A stretch of 64,000 nt of DNA, taken from Saprospiraceae bacterium. Its GTDB lineage: Bacteria > Bacteroidota > Bacteroidia > Chitinophagales > Saprospiraceae. Shown here piece after piece: positions 4,866-56,398 of this stretch; within the stretch, counting starts at the first letter, position 1; each line of letters opens with the position of its first letter. The notes beneath the pieces are model-generated. The model saw only the letters and a list, made by a program, of their open reading frames with translations. It did no database searches and was not told where the DNA came from. The position numbers were made by a program, and so were the translations under genes. The DNA lies in the NCBI GenBank assembly GCA_019638455.1, contig JAHBTU010000002.1, positions 1,460,501 through 1,524,500 of the forward strand, given 5' to 3'.

Positions 4866-5043
4866 AAGCCCAGATTAAAGAGGATTTGAACCTGTCCGTT
4901 GGCGAGGCAGGGATAGCCTTGATTGATTTGTATGACTTTCAAAGAATTGCGAGCGTCGTTCGTTCAAAACCACCTTGTCAGACCCTGCACTCAGGGGCTT
5001 GCCCTGCCAAGTGAAGCGGACGGGGCTGATTTGCGTTGACTAT
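4866..5043 (+). repeat. Dispersed repeat R1, copy A (about 178 bp)
   Basis: This stretch begins CCCAGATTAAAGAGGATTTG and ends GCGTTGACTAT. It matches the reverse complement of 56195-56374 over its whole length with scattered changes, and of 55832-55955 with a central gap. Its first 26 bases also form both arms of the hairpin at 31300-31370. It fills most of the 361-base gap between the M16 and TerC genes; the remaining 5044-5194 shows nothing recognisable. Confidence 0.8.
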
Positions 5044-35926: not shown

Positions 35927-35966
35927 AAGAGCGGGAGGCTCGTAGGCAGCGTTATTGCCCACATTA

Positions 35967-36066
35967 CTGGACATTGTTTTTGTGCGACAAAGGCACAAAG
36001 TGCGGCAAATCAATGCGTATTTTGCTTTGCGTCTTTGTGATTTCGTGGCAAATTTGAAATGTCCAG
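35967..36066 (+). repeat. Dispersed repeat R3, copy 1 (100 bp)
   Basis: Bounded by CTGGACATT and AATGTCCAG inverted ends, it matches the reverse complement of 55731-55831 throughout, including GGCAAATCAATG and TATTTTGCTTTGCGTCTT. The rest of the 533-base gap 35927-36459 shows nothing I can recognise. Confidence 0.8.
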
Positions 36067-36459
36067 TAGTGTGGTTATTGCCTCTGATAGCTTTCAGATG
36101 CTGTGTTTGTTGGGCCCCCACGAAATTATTTCACCTTGCCATTTCTGGCACAAACCCAGCAAACGGAGGCGTTTCAAGATTCTCCGGTGGCTTTTGGGAA
36201 ATAAGCGGTAGTAGGCATGGTATGCCACTACATTCCCCAATGTTAAATTTTTCGCGCCCCCTTGCTTCTCACCGTCGGCTTGCCGACATTTGCAAGGGTG
36301 TTGCGTCTTCGAGCGTGCGCACGGGCGCGATGCCGGGCAGGCCTGCTCTCCTACCTTTAATCTTTTTCCTTACTGTGGCATTGGTTCTTGTGAAAAGTTG
36401 GCCAGTCGCGGACGCGACTGGGCATGGCTCTCATTTGTTCATCAAAAACTTTCTTCGAC

Positions 36460-37738
36460 ATGAAAAAGACAGTAAAAATCGCCTCTTTGACAACAATCCT
36501 GCCTGCTGGCAGAGATTCCAATTGTGAAAATCATGTACCTTGTGTCGCGGGGGACATAGCCCCGCCAGCCGCCCAAGAACGTAAGTTGTGGGCTATACAT
36601 ACCCTTTTCTTCATCCTCTTTGGCCTATTTATAGGCATCGTGCCGGGCAAGGTTGTTGGGCAGTGTGCGCCAGCGATTCCGTGCGTACAAAACATCAATG
36701 ACTATCAGTGCATCACGTTTGGAACGTCACCGAGTTTGGTATCGAGTGGCAAATTGTTGCCATATCCGGGTAGCGCCTCAACTCAGCCACAGAAACTCAT
36801 CGTCGCAAGCTACATTGAGTTCACTGATGCCTACGAGTTCGCGCCGGGCACAGAAATCGTCATGTTGCCCAATGCTCTGCTTTGGATTCGCAACGATGTT
36901 CGATTTCTTGGGCAGGCGACCATAAGAGGATGCGGCGGCTCGTGGTATGGGATCCAGACGGATGCTAATGGCCATATCAGCATATACAACAGCACCATTT
37001 CCAACTCGTGCGAGGGCATTATCTTGGAAAGTGGCGCAAAGGGACAAATCGTCGGCAATACTTTCATGGATAATTTTACTTGCATTCAAGCAGAAGGCTC
37101 AGTCATATTGTATAGCGAAGGAATTGCACACAACATCTTCGATGGGACTATAAACACGAACTCTGGTTGCAGCCAACTAACTCCAGCCGCTATTAGGTTG
37201 ATAAATGTCCCACATATTACAATAGGCGACTTGACTCAAACCGGGAACCCAAATCGGATTATTGGATATGCATCTGGTATCAGAGCCAATAACTCCAACG
37301 TTGATGTGGTCAACACCACTTTTGCTGAAAAACCTACTGGAGGAGGAGCTATCTTTCTTCGGGGTACGAGTGGGGTATTTACTGCCAGCGTCACTGGTTT
37401 AGGGTCAGATGCATCCAGTCCATTGTTTTTGGATAATTACTCTGGCGGCATTGATGCCCGCAACTACAATCTTTCCGTAAAGGATGCCTCCTTCAAAGGT
37501 GTAGATTGGGGAGTACAACTTTTTAACAGCACTTTACCCACTACGCTAAATCTCTCTAACAACTTGATTGAGAATTACCACAGGTACGCTGTTTGGGTGA
37601 CCCAATCATCTCTTGGGGCAGCAGATATCACCAAAAATGAAACTTGGGACAACAGCAGTTCCCCAGAAGGTGAAAGAGCATGGATAAGATGGTCGAACAC
37701 TCCGATAAGCAGTCCAACAAGGCGTGCCTTCATTCATA
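36460..37738 (+). pseudogene. 5' part of secreted beta-helix protein, split by IS630 insertion
   Basis: Start at 36460 (MKKTVKIASLTTILPAG), with a hydrophobic signal segment after residue 45 (LWAIHTLFFILFGLFIGIVP). The body is a right-handed parallel beta-helix with repeating short strands: SNSCEGIILESGAKGQIVGN, AIRLINVPHITIGDLTQTGN, GIDARNYNLSVKDASFKG. The element at 37739-41701 cuts the codon after ATT CAT. Joined to 41704 it reads RAFIH-NNRFHDDAK with no frame loss, total 972 residues. The disrupted frame runs on only into the IS end. Confidence 0.9.
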
Positions 37739-37908
37739 TAGCCCCGTGCATTTTTAAAGGAACAAAGAGCGTATCTTTGCTTCATTTTGAGCATGAAAAA
37801 ACGTTTAAGTTCAGTTTCGTATGAAGGGATGCGCCTGCGAGCGGTAGAGATGTTCCGTTCAGGTAAGAACCGCCAAGACATCATGTCCAGTTTGGGGATA
37901 CCCAAATC

Positions 37909-38679
37909 GGTAGTGTCATTTTGGGGGTGATTTGGTATTTTTGCGTCAAACTTTATGAAATGGTATTAGATGTAAAATGCTGCCATAAATGTGGCTCTGA
38001 ACACATTGTGAAAAACGGGTCGAACGCATCAGGCAATCCGAAGTACAAATGCAAGGCTTGCGGCTTCGGCGGGGTGTTTCAAACGCTTCGGAAAAGCGAG
38101 GAATTTAAAGAAATGGTCGTCAGGGCGGCCCAAGAACGCAGTTCGTCACGGGGTCTTGCCAGAACCTTTGGCATCAGTCACCAAACGGCTCTGAGGTGGA
38201 TAAAAAAAAAGCGCAGTCCCTTCCCGACATCGTGACCACGTTGCTTCCGGCCAAGAAAAAAGACGTTCTCGAACTGGATGAATTATGGTCTTTTGTCTAT
38301 TGCAAAGACTTTAAACGCTGGGTTTGGATAGCACTTTGCCGCAGAACACGTCAAATTGTCTCTTTTTTCATCGGCGACCGAAGCGAACAATCTTGTCGGC
38401 GGTTTTGGGAACTGATTCCGCCTGAATATCGAAAATGCCGAACGTTCAGCGATTTTTGGGAGGCATACGCCGCGGTTATTGATACAGGCAAACACAAGAT
38501 GGTGGGAAAAGAATCCGGGGAAACTTCTCATGTGGAACGCTGGAACAACACCCTTCGCCAGAGAATTTGTCGATTCGTCAGAAAAACGCTATCCTTTTCA
38601 AAATCCGATGAAATGCACGAACTGTACCTCCATTTGTTCGTCTACAACTACAACATATCACTCATAAAATGACACTACC
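37909..38679 (+). mobile_element. IS1-family copy 1 (771 bp)
   Basis: Terminal repeats GGTAGTGTCATTTT and its complement AAAATGACACTACC. Identical in length (771) and in translated products to copy 3, 2103 bases apart. Confidence 0.92.
37960..38672 (+). CDS. IS1-family transposase (InsA/InsB by -1 frameshift)
   Basis: Two overlapping frames are joined at nine consecutive A (38202-38210). The upstream frame (MVLDVKCCHKCGSEHIVKNG, then YKCKACGFGGVFQT, ISHQTALRWIKKK) has a zinc-finger CxxC pair and HTH like InsA. The downstream frame (VDKKKAQSLPDIVTTLLPAK, then LDELWSFV with catalytic D, and AVIDTGKHKMVGKESGETSH, then VERWNNTLRQRICRFVRKTL) resembles InsB. A -1 slip, as known for IS1, would give a protein of about 236 residues. 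Confidence 0.9.
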
Positions 38680-38754
38680 AGGTAAGTCATCATGTTTTCG
38701 AGGGACAATCCAAAGGACAATTTTCTTTGCCCCTCAATCGCTCTTTGTAAAGCA

Positions 38755-39184
38755 ATGAAGAAAAAATCTACGCTCTTCCTGCTCCCATGCGCCGCTGTTT
38801 GCATTTTTCTTTCCGCTCCCAATCCGGTTTTCGGGCAGTCGGTTCAATCCATTGATTCATTGCAGCAGATTCAGGAAGTTGTCGTGCAAGGTTATTTGTC
38901 GCGGCAGCCCCTGTTGCAAACGCCGGCATCCATTGGCATTGTCAATAACGAACAATTGAATCAACGCGCTGCTCATTCGTTGGTACCTGCGTTGAACCTG
39001 ATACCCGGCGTGCGGATGGAGGAGCGGTCTCCGGGCAGTTACCGCTTGTCCATTCGCGGGAGCCTTTTGCGCTCTCCCTTTGGTGTGCGCAACGTGAAGG
39101 TGTATATGGATGAATTTCCTTTGACCGACGCAGGTGGCAACACCTACCTCAATTTGCTCGATGCCAACGCGATTGAACGCATTG
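38755..39184 (+). pseudogene. 5' fragment of a TonB-dependent outer-membrane receptor
   Basis: The frame has a signal peptide (MKKKSTLFLLPCAAVCIFLS), a TonB-box-like IQEVVVQGY and a plug domain (GIVNNEQLNQRAAHSLVPAL, PGVRMEERSPGSYRLSIRGS, GVRNVKVYMDEFPLTDAGGN, DANAIERIG). It ends abruptly at the IS1 copy 2 boundary, where the receptor would normally run for another 500 or more residues. Nothing after copy 2 continues it. Only about 143 residues remain, so the barrel is missing. Confidence 0.85.
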
Positions 39185-39955
39185 GGTAGTGTCATTTTAT
39201 GAGTGATACGTTGTAGTTGAAAATGAACAAGTGCAAATAGAGTTCATGCATTTCATCGCTCTTTGAGAAAGAGAGGGTTTTTCTGACAAAGCGACATATC
39301 CGCTGGCGCAGGGTATTGTTCCATCGTTCGACATGGGATGTTTCGCCCGACTCCTTGCCGACTAATTGATGCTTGCCCGTATCAATGACCTTGGAGTAGG
39401 TCTCCCAAAAGTCGCTGAACGACCTGCATTTTCGATATTTTTTGGGGATCAAGTTCCAAAAACTACGGCAGGTTTTCTCGCTTCTGTCTCCGATAAAAAA
39501 AGAAACGATTTGCCTCGTCCGTCTACAAAGCGCTATCCAAACCCATCGTTTTTGTGCTTTTTCATACACAAAAGACCACAGTTCGTCCAGTTCAAGCGCA
39601 TCATTCTTCTTGGCTGGGAGCAAGGTGGTCACGATGTCAGGCAGGGATTGGGCTTTTTTTAATCCACCTAAGGGCAGTTTGGTGGCTGATGCCAAAGGTT
39701 CTGGCAAGCCCCCGTGACGAACTGCGTTCTTGAGCCGCCTTGACGACCAATTCTTTGAACTCCTCGCTTTTACGAACCGTTTGGAAGACCCCGCCAAAAC
39801 CACATGCCTTGCATTTGTACTTGGGGTTTCCCGAACTATTCGAACCATTTTTGACGATGTGCTCGGAGCCGCATTTGTGACAGCATTTATGTTCTGTTAC
39901 CATGACAAAAAAATTTGACACAAAGATATTGAACCACCCAATTAATTACACTACC
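39185..39955 (-). mobile_element. IS1-family copy 2, diverged and reversed (771 bp)
   Basis: Ends GGTAGTGTCATTTTAT and ATTACACTACC; its right end differs from the other copies. Flanks (ACGCATTG and CAACTTTT) show no duplication, so an adjacent deletion probably followed insertion and removed the rest of the receptor gene. Confidence 0.88.
39192..39903 (-). pseudogene. IS1-family transposase of copy 2, probably inactive
   Basis: The frames are those of copies 1 and 3 with scattered substitutions (e.g. NDALELDELWSFVYEKAQKR, FIFNYNVSLIK), so the element is an older relative. At the slip site only seven A are present (39654-39660 on the plus strand as T). From InsA a -1 slip no longer enters InsB; +1 or -2 would be needed. 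DDE residues look intact (LDELWSF, SHVERWNN). Confidence 0.75.
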
Positions 39956-40011
39956 CAACTTTTTTCATAATCGGAAATGTTTTTGGTGAATGAAATGTGA
40001 GTAAAATGCCG

Positions 40012-40782
40012 GGTAGTGTCATTTTGGGGGTGATTTGGTATTTTTGCGTCAAACTTTATGAAATGGTATTAGATGTAAAATGCTGCCATAAATGTGGCTC
40101 TGAACACATTGTGAAAAACGGGTCGAACGCATCAGGCAATCCGAAGTACAAATGCAAGGCTTGCGGCTTCGGCGGGGTGTTTCAAACGCTTCGGAAAAGC
40201 GAGGAATTTAAAGAAATGGTCGTCAGGGCGGCCCAAGAACGCAGTTCGTCACGGGGTCTTGCCAGAACCTTTGGCATCAGTCACCAAACGGCTCTGAGGT
40301 GGATAAAAAAAAAGCGCAGTCCCTTCCCGACATCGTGACCACGTTGCTTCCGGCCAAGAAAAAAGACGTTCTCGAACTGGATGAATTATGGTCTTTTGTC
40401 TATTGCAAAGACTTTAAACGCTGGGTTTGGATAGCACTTTGCCGCAGAACACGTCAAATTGTCTCTTTTTTCATCGGCGACCGAAGCGAACAATCTTGTC
40501 GGCGGTTTTGGGAACTGATTCCGCCTGAATATCGAAAATGCCGAACGTTCAGCGATTTTTGGGAGGCATACGCCGCGGTTATTGATACAGGCAAACACAA
40601 GATGGTGGGAAAAGAATCCGGGGAAACTTCTCATGTGGAACGCTGGAACAACACCCTTCGCCAGAGAATTTGTCGATTCGTCAGAAAAACGCTATCCTTT
40701 TCAAAATCCGATGAAATGCACGAACTGTACCTCCATTTGTTCGTCTACAACTACAACATATCACTCATAAAATGACACTACC
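40012..40782 (+). mobile_element. IS1-family copy 3 (771 bp), identical to copy 1
   Basis: Same ends and length as copy 1. It forms the right border of the composite, next to the 8-bp duplication CCCAAATC at 40783-40790. Confidence 0.92.
40063..40775 (+). CDS. IS1-family transposase of copy 3
   Basis: Same frames as copy 1, with nine A at 40305-40313 for the -1 slip. The translations are identical to those of copy 1, so the duplication is recent or kept alike by gene conversion. Confidence 0.9.
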
Positions 40783-41703
40783 CCCAAATCAACGTTGTCA
40801 CGATGGCTTGCGCGATACGATGCAGACAATCCTGCTTGGTACAAGAGCCTTCCGCCGGGCGGAACCCAGAGCAAATTAGGAACCGAAGACCTGCGGCGCC
40901 TGGTGGAAGAATTGAACAAGGGTTGTACAGCGCAGGGATTTGAAGGGGAAATATGGACGCGGGGTCGCGTTGGTGTTGTGATTGAGCGACTTTTTGGGGT
41001 AAAGTATGACCCATCCCATGTGGGGCGGTTGCTGAAAAAGGTCGGATGGTCGCTGCAACGGCCTTCCAAACAGGCTCGCCAGCGTTCGGAAGAGCGGGTG
41101 CAGAAGTGGTATGCAGAGGACATAGGTCGCATTAAAAAAAAGTGAAGCGGAAAACCGCGTATTGTTTCATGCCGATGAGTGTGGGGTTTGCTTGCTGCCC
41201 TTTTGCGCCAAAACTTGGGCCCCCAAGGGCCAGACTCCGGTGCTTCAAGAATTCAAAAGCCGCGAGCATCTGAATCTGTTCGGCATGATTTCAACCCGGG
41301 GTGATTTGTGCTGGCAAATCCAACGCCTCCCTTTCAAGGCTGAAGATTTTGAGGAGTTTTTCACTTGGTTGAGCACCGAAGAACTGACGAACACCAAAAT
41401 GCTGGTCGTATGGGATGGTGCTTCAATTCATAAGGGTCAGCCGGTAAAAGATTTTTTGCAACACAACCCCGGTATAATACACCTCGAAGCACTACCACCT
41501 TATTGCCCACAACTAAATGCCATAGAATTACTTTGGGATTACCTCAAGTGCCACAAACTCAAAAACCGGATTTTTCTCAATTTGGACGATTTGCAAACTG
41601 CCGTAGAATATGCACTTCACGAAATCGCTGATGACCCCGAACTCATCCGCTCTTTTTTCACTAAATCATCCGTCTCGTTCCTTTAAATATGCACGGGGCT
41701 ATA

Positions 41704-43343
41704 ACAACAGGTTCCATGACGATGCCAAGACAAGCCCTGACCCTGTCTTCGTGCAATACCAATCTTACGGTGCTTGGATAACAGGACCTACCCGCATCAC
41801 ATTGCAAAAAAACAAGTTTTTCCAAAACTACGAGACCGATATCCGGCATGAATTCAAAGGCATTTGGCTTACTGGCTCACCGTCCAATGTCTTGGACAAA
41901 AATGACTTTGTAGGCAATTACGGCCCAATGAATATTACAAACAGCGGCGGCTACGCTTACAGAGGGATTCATGTAGACAACTCAAACTCCAACAAACTGT
42001 CGTGCAACACGAGCACAAATCTGAATCAAGGCTTCTTTTTCAACGGCCCGGCTTGCGACCACACCAACTTCCGCAGCAACACAATGACCGACAACTTGGA
42101 AGGGTTGTATTTGTCGCCCGGCAGCATCATCGGTGTTCAAAGCGAAAAAATGAACACTTGGCCGGGCAGCGGGGCGCTCGAAGCGCATTTTGATGGAATG
42201 CCGGAGCAGGGTCTGATGTTTATGTCTCAATTCAGAATCAACACTTCCAATCAAAATTCTCCACTTTGGGCAAGCCCGAGGGTTCCAGCAAACAACTGGT
42301 TTGTACCCTCTGGTAACGAGCCGCCTATAGGGGTCCCGTTGTCGGAGACCTGCTTCGAGGAAATAAACGAAGACCCGCCCGGCTCAGAGGCGAACGCAAG
42401 GGCGATAGCCGGTACTTTTGAGGACTACAAGGGTTATCCAGCATCGGGATGGGAGGCGCGATTGGATGCTTTTGCCGTACTGGCCGCACATCCCGAACTC
42501 CGGCCCGAGAACAGCCCGGAAGCGCAGTTTTACAACACCCACGATACGGGCAACACAGGCAAACTCCAGCGGGCAAGGGATGCTTGGGACAACATCACTG
42601 TATTCACTGCCTCGTTCGAGAGCAGCTGGAATGCCAACCAAGCAGATATAGCGGCAAAGCTCGGAGAGATAAGAGCACAAACCCAACTGATGCAGGAAGC
42701 CGAAACAGAATCCGAACAGCAACAAATCGCGCAAACGTTGGGAACGCTGCAATCAGAACTGACCACGCTGCAACAAACTAACCAGAGCCTTTCCGAGCAA
42801 TATAAATCTGATGTGGCAGATCGAGCGAACCAATTGGCCGCCGATTTGGACAACGTAAATACAACGGACGTCTGGGAACAAAATCTGAAAACTGTGCTGG
42901 TTTTGTCGGCAGAAAAACTGTTGTCTGGCAACACCGAATGGACGACTACTCAATACAATTCCCTAAAATCTATCGCCGACCAGTGTCGGCACGAAGGCGG
43001 CATCGGGGTAGTCATGGCGCGTGTTGCAATTGAAGAATTTGACTACGATGACGAGGCTATGTGTCCCGGTGCCGGGCTGCCGCGCAGCAGCGATGCTGCA
43101 CGTTTGGGCGCATTGGTCGCGCCAAACCCTGCTTCGGACTTTTGCCGATTGACCTTTGAACAACCTGTGAACGGTTCATTGCGCGTGTACAATTTTCAAG
43201 GGCAGGTAGTCCGCAATGTGCGATTTGCGGAAGCCTCCTATTTCGAACTTGACACACGAAACTTGTCAAGCGGCCTCTATGGCATCGAGGTGCGAACCAA
43301 ACAAGGCTTGCGATACGCTGGCAAACTGAGCATCGTCCGTTGA
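41704..43343 (+). pseudogene. 3' part of secreted beta-helix protein with T9SS domain
   Basis: Continues the 36460 gene in frame. It carries the last beta-helix turns (YRGIHVDNSNSNKLSCNTST, NTMTDNLEGLYLSPGS), a long helical stretch (residues IAAKLGEIRAQTQLMQEAET, then QQIAQTLGTLQSELTTLQQT) that looks like a coiled coil, and a T9SS type A domain (LGALVAPNPASDFCRLTFEQ to LRYAGKLSIVR). As the gene is split it cannot be made whole unless the insertion is lost. Confidence 0.9.
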
Positions 43344-55666: not shown

Positions 55667-55730
55667 TTTGTAATCAATGGTTCGTGAAGAATTTGAATTG
55701 CATGGTCAATTGATAGCCATAATCAGACTG

Positions 55731-55831
55731 CTGGACATTTTCAAATTTGCCACGAAGACGCAAAGCAAAATACTCATTGATTTGCCACATTTTGTGCCTT
55801 TGTGTCTTTGCAGCACAATAATAATGTCCAG
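55731..55831 (-). repeat. Dispersed repeat R3, copy 2
   Basis: Begins CTGGACATTTTCAAATTTGC and ends AATAATGTCCAG; reverse complement of 35967-36066 with about 85% agreement by eye. It directly abuts R1 copy B. Confidence 0.8.
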
Positions 55832-55955
55832 TATAGTCAACGCGAAGTGGTTTTGAGCGAACGGCGCTCGCAATCCTCTGAAAATCATGCAAATCAATCA
55901 AGGAAATCACTGCCTTGCCAACCGGCAGGTTCAAATCCTCTTTAATCTGGGTATA
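55832..55955 (-). repeat. Dispersed repeat R1, copy B (internally deleted)
   Basis: TATAGTCAACGCG to CTGGGTATA; lacks about 55 bases of the middle (the GTCAGACCCTG stretch) found in copies A and C. It abuts R3 at 55831. Confidence 0.8.
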
Positions 55956-56122
55956 GTGTGAGCCATAATTCACTTATTTTTTTGCAGGTTTCTATATTTC
56001 CCAACTGTGCATAAAAATATCAACGCTCACTCCAACTACGTCACGAGTACCTTCAAGGTGTTGAAATTCAAAAAATTAAGTCATTTTGTCAATACTCAAA
56101 TTCTTCACGCACCATTGATAAT

Positions 56123-56398
56123 GGGTGCATTTCAAATGGTCGCTTATGTACGCCGGAACACTTTTCCGGCATAAATCGGAACAGTGTTCCGATTTATAGT
56201 CAACGCAAATCAGCCCCGTCCGCTTTGCTTAGCCGGGCAAGCCCCTGAGTACAGGGTCTGACAAGGTGGTTTTGAACGAACGGTGCTCGCAATCCTTTGA
56301 AAATCATGCAAATCAATCAAGGAGATCCCTGCCTTGCCAACGGGCAGATTCAAATCCTCTTTAATCTGGGTATACTTGCGACAATTTGAAACGCACCC
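56123..56398. repeat. Inverted-repeat element R4, copy 2 (276 bp)
   Basis: Ends TGCATTTCAAATGGTCGC (to 56143) and GCGACAATTTGAAACGCA (from 56378) pair at about 19 of 21 positions. Its left 50 bases match 9932-9983. Its inside is the perfect palindrome AAATCGGAAC/GTTCCGATTT (56173-56196 region) and R1 copy C, so R1 sits within R4. The 740-base gap 55667-56407 is made of R3, R1 and R4. Confidence 0.75.
56195..56374 (-). repeat. Dispersed repeat R1, copy C (180 bp), nested in R4
   Basis: TATAGTCAACGCAAATC to CTGGGTATA, the reverse complement of 4866-5043 over its whole length. Confidence 0.85.

Follow-up and report, generated by a model that had tools for sequence, protein, structure and literature searches.

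A type IX-secreted beta-helix gene interrupted by an IS630-family element that carries an IS1-bounded unit with a copied TonB receptor fragment

The window analysed here is a 64,000-nucleotide stretch of a Saprospiraceae genome (C2:1460501-1524500, where C2 is one of the 7 contigs of a 5.77 Mb assembly). Within it, a beta-helix gene is interrupted by an IS630-family element whose transposase gene is itself split by a unit bounded by two IS1 copies, and the interior of this unit holds a piece of a TonB receptor gene, a distinct IS1-family element and a short stretch of about 55 bp. The proline dehydrogenase gene assigns the organism to an uncultured branch of the Saprospiraceae, with 88% identity to its best relatives. 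Each layer of the predicted nest was compared with an independent empty site. In window positions the features are:

36460..37738, + strand: interrupted beta-helix gene, 5' part (joined frame, alignment of relatives)
37737..37738, no strand: TA target duplication of IS630, left copy (joined gene, TA at sister copies)
37739..41701, + strand: IS630-family element including its insert, 1081 bp without it (inverted repeats, 24 intact copies, HTH_33 and DDE_3)
37901..37908, no strand: CCCAAATC, target duplication of the IS1-bounded unit, left (flank comparison, intact IS630 site)
37909..38679, + strand: IS1a, IS1 family, 771 bp, one of 50 identical full copies in the genome (DDE_Tnp_IS1)
38680..39184, + strand: 5' piece copied from a TonB receptor gene, together with the AGGTAAGT junction upstream of it (Plug domain; equals donor C2:577851-578354)
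39185..39955, - strand: IS1b, distinct IS1-family element present in 4 identical copies genome-wide, without a target duplication at this site (IS1 domain, copy comparison)
39957..40011, no strand: about 55 bp with a 52-bp core unique in the genome (sequence searches)
40012..40782, + strand: IS1c, identical to IS1a (sequence identity over 771 bp)
40783..40790, no strand: CCCAAATC, target duplication of the IS1-bounded unit, right (flank comparison, intact IS630 site)
41702..41703, no strand: TA target duplication of IS630, right copy (joined gene, TA at sister copies)
41704..43343, + strand: interrupted beta-helix gene, 3' part with type IX secretion sorting domain (Beta_helix, Por_Secre_tail)

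The original prediction held that taking out 37739-41701 with one TA would restore the frame of the outer gene. Joining 36460-37738 to 41704-43343 and translating the product gives 972 residues with no internal stops, reading RAFIH-NNRF across the join. Uninterrupted frames of 934, 945 and 990 residues are present in three genomes of the same genus, and the alignments to all three are gap-free at the join, with identities of 48/47, 41/47 and 37/44% for the N- and C-terminal halves of the joined protein; a fourth, more distant relative likewise spans the join. The open frame and the clean homology across the join in genus relatives thus bear the predicted restoration out. The 3' part contains Por_Secre_tail (PF18962, 1.9e-08) and Beta_helix (PF13229, 2.8e-08) domains, so that the protein combines the C-terminal sorting domain and beta-helix repeats of type IX-secreted beta-helix proteins of Bacteroidota. 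It differs from these proteins, which are intact at 934-990 residues in the genus relatives, in being interrupted after residue 426, counted from ATG 36460. The true start may lie later than this ATG, up to about 150 bp downstream, because homology begins only 30-52 residues past it. At present the 5' frame comprises 466 residues, terminates within IS630 and has no sorting domain, and the 3' frame begins within IS630 and has no signal region. On the strength of this anatomy, with the sorting domain missing from one fragment and the signal region from the other, the interrupted gene is most likely a null allele. We considered phase variation via precise excision and set it aside, as no sign at the locus points to it.

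The interrupting element has the TA duplication, terminal inverted repeats (27 bp, 96%, 37737-37763 and 41677-41703) and HTH and DDE_3 transposase of the IS630 family. The two domains (HTH_33, PF13592, 6e-17; DDE_3, PF13358, 5e-27) lie in two frames with an A8 run at their meeting point, in the window copy as in the 2 others examined, and one TA is retained in the joined beta-helix gene. There are 25 copies in the genome; the other 24 are 1081 bp long and uninterrupted, are without exception flanked by TA and differ from the window copy by 1-6 bases, and the window element departs from its family only in being interrupted. A second excision had been predicted, of 37909-40782 with one CCCAAATC, and it was likewise confirmed. 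Without this segment (37901-40782 in all) the element returns to the 1081 bp of the 24 uninterrupted copies and the frame reads PKS-TLSRW, at a site equal to that in the intact copies, which have GATACCCAAATCAACG at the split point and the translation PKSTLSRW. The IS630 copies vary at element positions 30, 69, 131, 237, 291 and 978, and the variants are mixed between copies (positions 30 and 291 occur in each of their four combinations), a pattern that suggests recombination or gene conversion among them.

The segment that splits the IS630 transposase gene has the structure of a composite transposon: its bounding copies, IS1a and IS1c, show no difference over 771 bp and share one direction, and the 8-bp duplication CCCAAATC lies outside the pair, with none around either copy alone. 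These features are shared with Tn9-type IS1 composites and the IS1 family at large, as are the DDE_Tnp_IS1 domain (PF03400, 2.8e-23 and 1.9e-23), the 771-bp length, the terminal inverted repeats and the two frames overlapping at an A-run, where a putative programmed frameshift would join them. Unlike Tn9-type composites, the window unit contains no selectable cargo; all it carries is a piece of a broken gene and another element of IS1 type. It is found as one copy in the genome. The IS1a type itself has 51 matching left ends in the genome and 50 copies that are full and identical, of which 42 have target duplications of at least 7 bp; simple copies show the expected duplications of 8-9 bp, at 42/50 for the IS1a type and 2/4 for the IS1b type. 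The IS1 expansion looks specific to this species, because the 41 other genomes of the genus that we sampled contain only partial or diverged relatives. Independently of the nesting, the sequences fit an IS1 wave later than the spread of IS630, because the 50 full IS1 copies are identical while the IS630 copies vary by a few bases.

The TonB piece has a donor in the same genome. It is identical at 504/504 positions to C2:577851-578354, part of a locus (C2:577851-579126) that lies on the same contig 0.92 Mb from the window site, where an IS1 flanked on both sides by AGGTAAGT stands in front of a TonB receptor gene. The interior of the window unit contains the donor's AGGTAAGT junction between IS1 and TonB gene, and the TonB piece was therefore copied together with the donor IS1. 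The donor gene continues past GAACGCATTG into AAATACTC with no IS1b; in the window the piece ends at GAACGCATTG, IS1b follows, and the donor's continuation (GAAATACTC...) is missing. IS1b and the 55 bp are both absent from the donor as it stands, and the IS1 downstream of it has the opposite direction, so the present unit did not arise from the current donor by a single copying step. A simple inversion between IS1 copies at the donor and at the window site was rejected, because the donor IS1 retains AGGTAAGT on both sides. The donor TonB gene is also broken further along by another IS1 (C2:576489-577259, duplication CCATGTAG), and neither TonB copy is therefore whole.

DNA from the upstream side of the same donor is found on another contig. 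At C5:252012-253380, 598 bp of this side and one IS1 form a unit with CATTACAA on both flanks; its left end is an IS1-type terminus, and its first 69 bp recur elsewhere in the genome. Read from this anatomy, IS1 moved flanking DNA at C5 using a foreign end. Since the C5 unit has its own duplication, the IS1 of this genome moves DNA that flanks it, which supports the composite reading of the window unit. We speculate, and hold it to be doubtful, that the IS1 transposase pairs one IS1 end with the terminus of another IS1-type element, so that pieces of host genes left a single donor locus in both directions, 598 bp to C5 with its own duplication and 504 bp to the window. If true, this would be a natural record of gene-fragment shuffling driven by IS1.

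IS1b was the point at which the original prediction failed. It had described the TonB fragment as cut by a third, reversed IS1, yet IS1b is a separate element that shares 78% identity with IS1a and recurs in identical form at three other places in the genome; comparison of both its flanks in the window revealed no target duplication, and the TonB gene does not resume beyond it. The 52-bp core on its far side has no match in its own genome, in the 41 other genomes of the genus or in IMG/VR. Pairwise matching of flanks across every IS1 copy that lacks a target duplication gave no partner for IS1b or for AAATGCCG beside IS1c; the same pairing recovered the CCCAAATC pair of the window unit and the AGGTAAGT link to C5:252610. 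An A-rich flank match of 7/8 from this pairing was taken as chance. Adjacent deletions that leave no direct repeats are documented for IS1 and Tn9 (PMC9330008), and IS1b resembles them in that one flank is replaced and direct repeats are absent. It differs from the documented cases (PMC9330008) in that the deletion is deduced from its flanks.

Altogether, we favor a history in which an IS630-family element entered the gene, an IS1 unit with a scrap of TonB gene then entered IS630, IS1b made an adjacent deletion and a null allele was left behind, and we regard this account as a whole as very probably correct. As read from the empty sites, a 1081-bp IS630-family element inserted at a TA and inactivated the type IX-secreted beta-helix gene, and its transposase gene was later split by a unit of two identical IS1 copies in the same direction, with an 8-bp duplication; the unit's cargo, by its identity to the donor, is a 504-bp scrap of TonB receptor gene copied with its neighbouring IS1 from the same contig. 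The unit most likely moved as an IS1 composite transposon. IS1b would most likely have terminated the TonB piece through an adjacent deletion, which would account both for the lack of a duplication and for the foreign 55 bp beyond the element. The four-layer nest that had been predicted, and its claim of a directly readable order, accordingly stand in part. The order from gene to IS630 to IS1-bounded unit is established at the level of sequence because empty sites exist both in the orthologues and in the sister IS630 copies, and the outer layers hold with it. The innermost layer does not stand as described, and the order of the inner events, including the arrival of IS1b relative to the entry of the unit into IS630, is not readable, because IS1b has no duplication, the donor has no IS1b and the ~55 bp have no counterpart elsewhere in the genome or in the genus genomes sampled. 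If insertion is assumed to be uniform, about 49 IS1 insertions into a genome with 25 IS630 copies give 0.23 expected nestings of IS1 in IS630, with a probability of about 0.2 for at least one. One IS1 among 25 IS630 copies is thus unsurprising, and the joins themselves are far beyond chance.

Other histories place the inner events differently. The one originally proposed has a TonB-bearing composite enter IS630 and a third IS1 then insert in the ordinary way into the TonB fragment, for four nested insertions in readable order. That the very terminus of IS1b abuts the TonB piece is what such an insertion would leave, but an 8-bp duplication would be expected as well and is absent, and what lies beyond IS1b is not the donor's TonB continuation. 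The simple form is thus contradicted and an added later deletion is needed, which makes this history improbable. Better placed, though still rather unlikely, is a course without composite transposition, in which a lone IS1 entered IS630 and a circle bearing IS1, or a fragment of incoming DNA, later brought in the interior through homologous recombination. If an IS1 circle recombined into one resident IS1, the resulting structure would be equal: the same outer duplications would be left, the IS1 copies are identical, and the interior mixes donor DNA with DNA that matched none of the sequences searched. However, no direct sign of a circle was seen, and DNA of the same donor reached C5 by transposing as a unit that has a duplication of its own.

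A mis-assembly of repeats, affecting the interior or the entire nest, is also conceivable, as fifty identical 771-bp repeats are hazardous to assemble and the 52-bp core recurs nowhere else in the genome. We nevertheless judge it highly improbable, since the TA and CCCAAATC duplications match at the outer borders, 42/50 full IS1 copies have duplications of at least 7 bp, and the assembly has 7 contigs for 5.77 Mb.

The elements and events are all of known sorts and involve no new mechanism, and the nest is an ordinary outcome in a genome rich in jumping genes; our literature search on nested insertion sequences returned no specific match. The locus offers a well-ordered case of gene loss through stacked mobile elements in which the source of the captured fragment has been located within the genome itself. 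With this donor locus and its second export to C5, the copying of flanking DNA by IS1 can be put to the test in an uncultured lineage of the Saprospiraceae.

Elsewhere in the genome, a second nested insertion is found at C3:904302-904727, where one IS1 lies within another; the left ends are 389 bp apart and the outer copy measures 1160 bp. Dense clusters with IS630 copies among the IS1 elements are seen at C2:122700-133300 (6 IS1 in about 9 kb) and, near a contig end, at C1:1552-1590 kb (8 IS1 in about 35 kb). Three intergenic stretches of the window (55679-56374, 35952-36078 and 4869-5043) are 85-96% alike to stretches around the C5 unit and are possibly small dispersed repeats.
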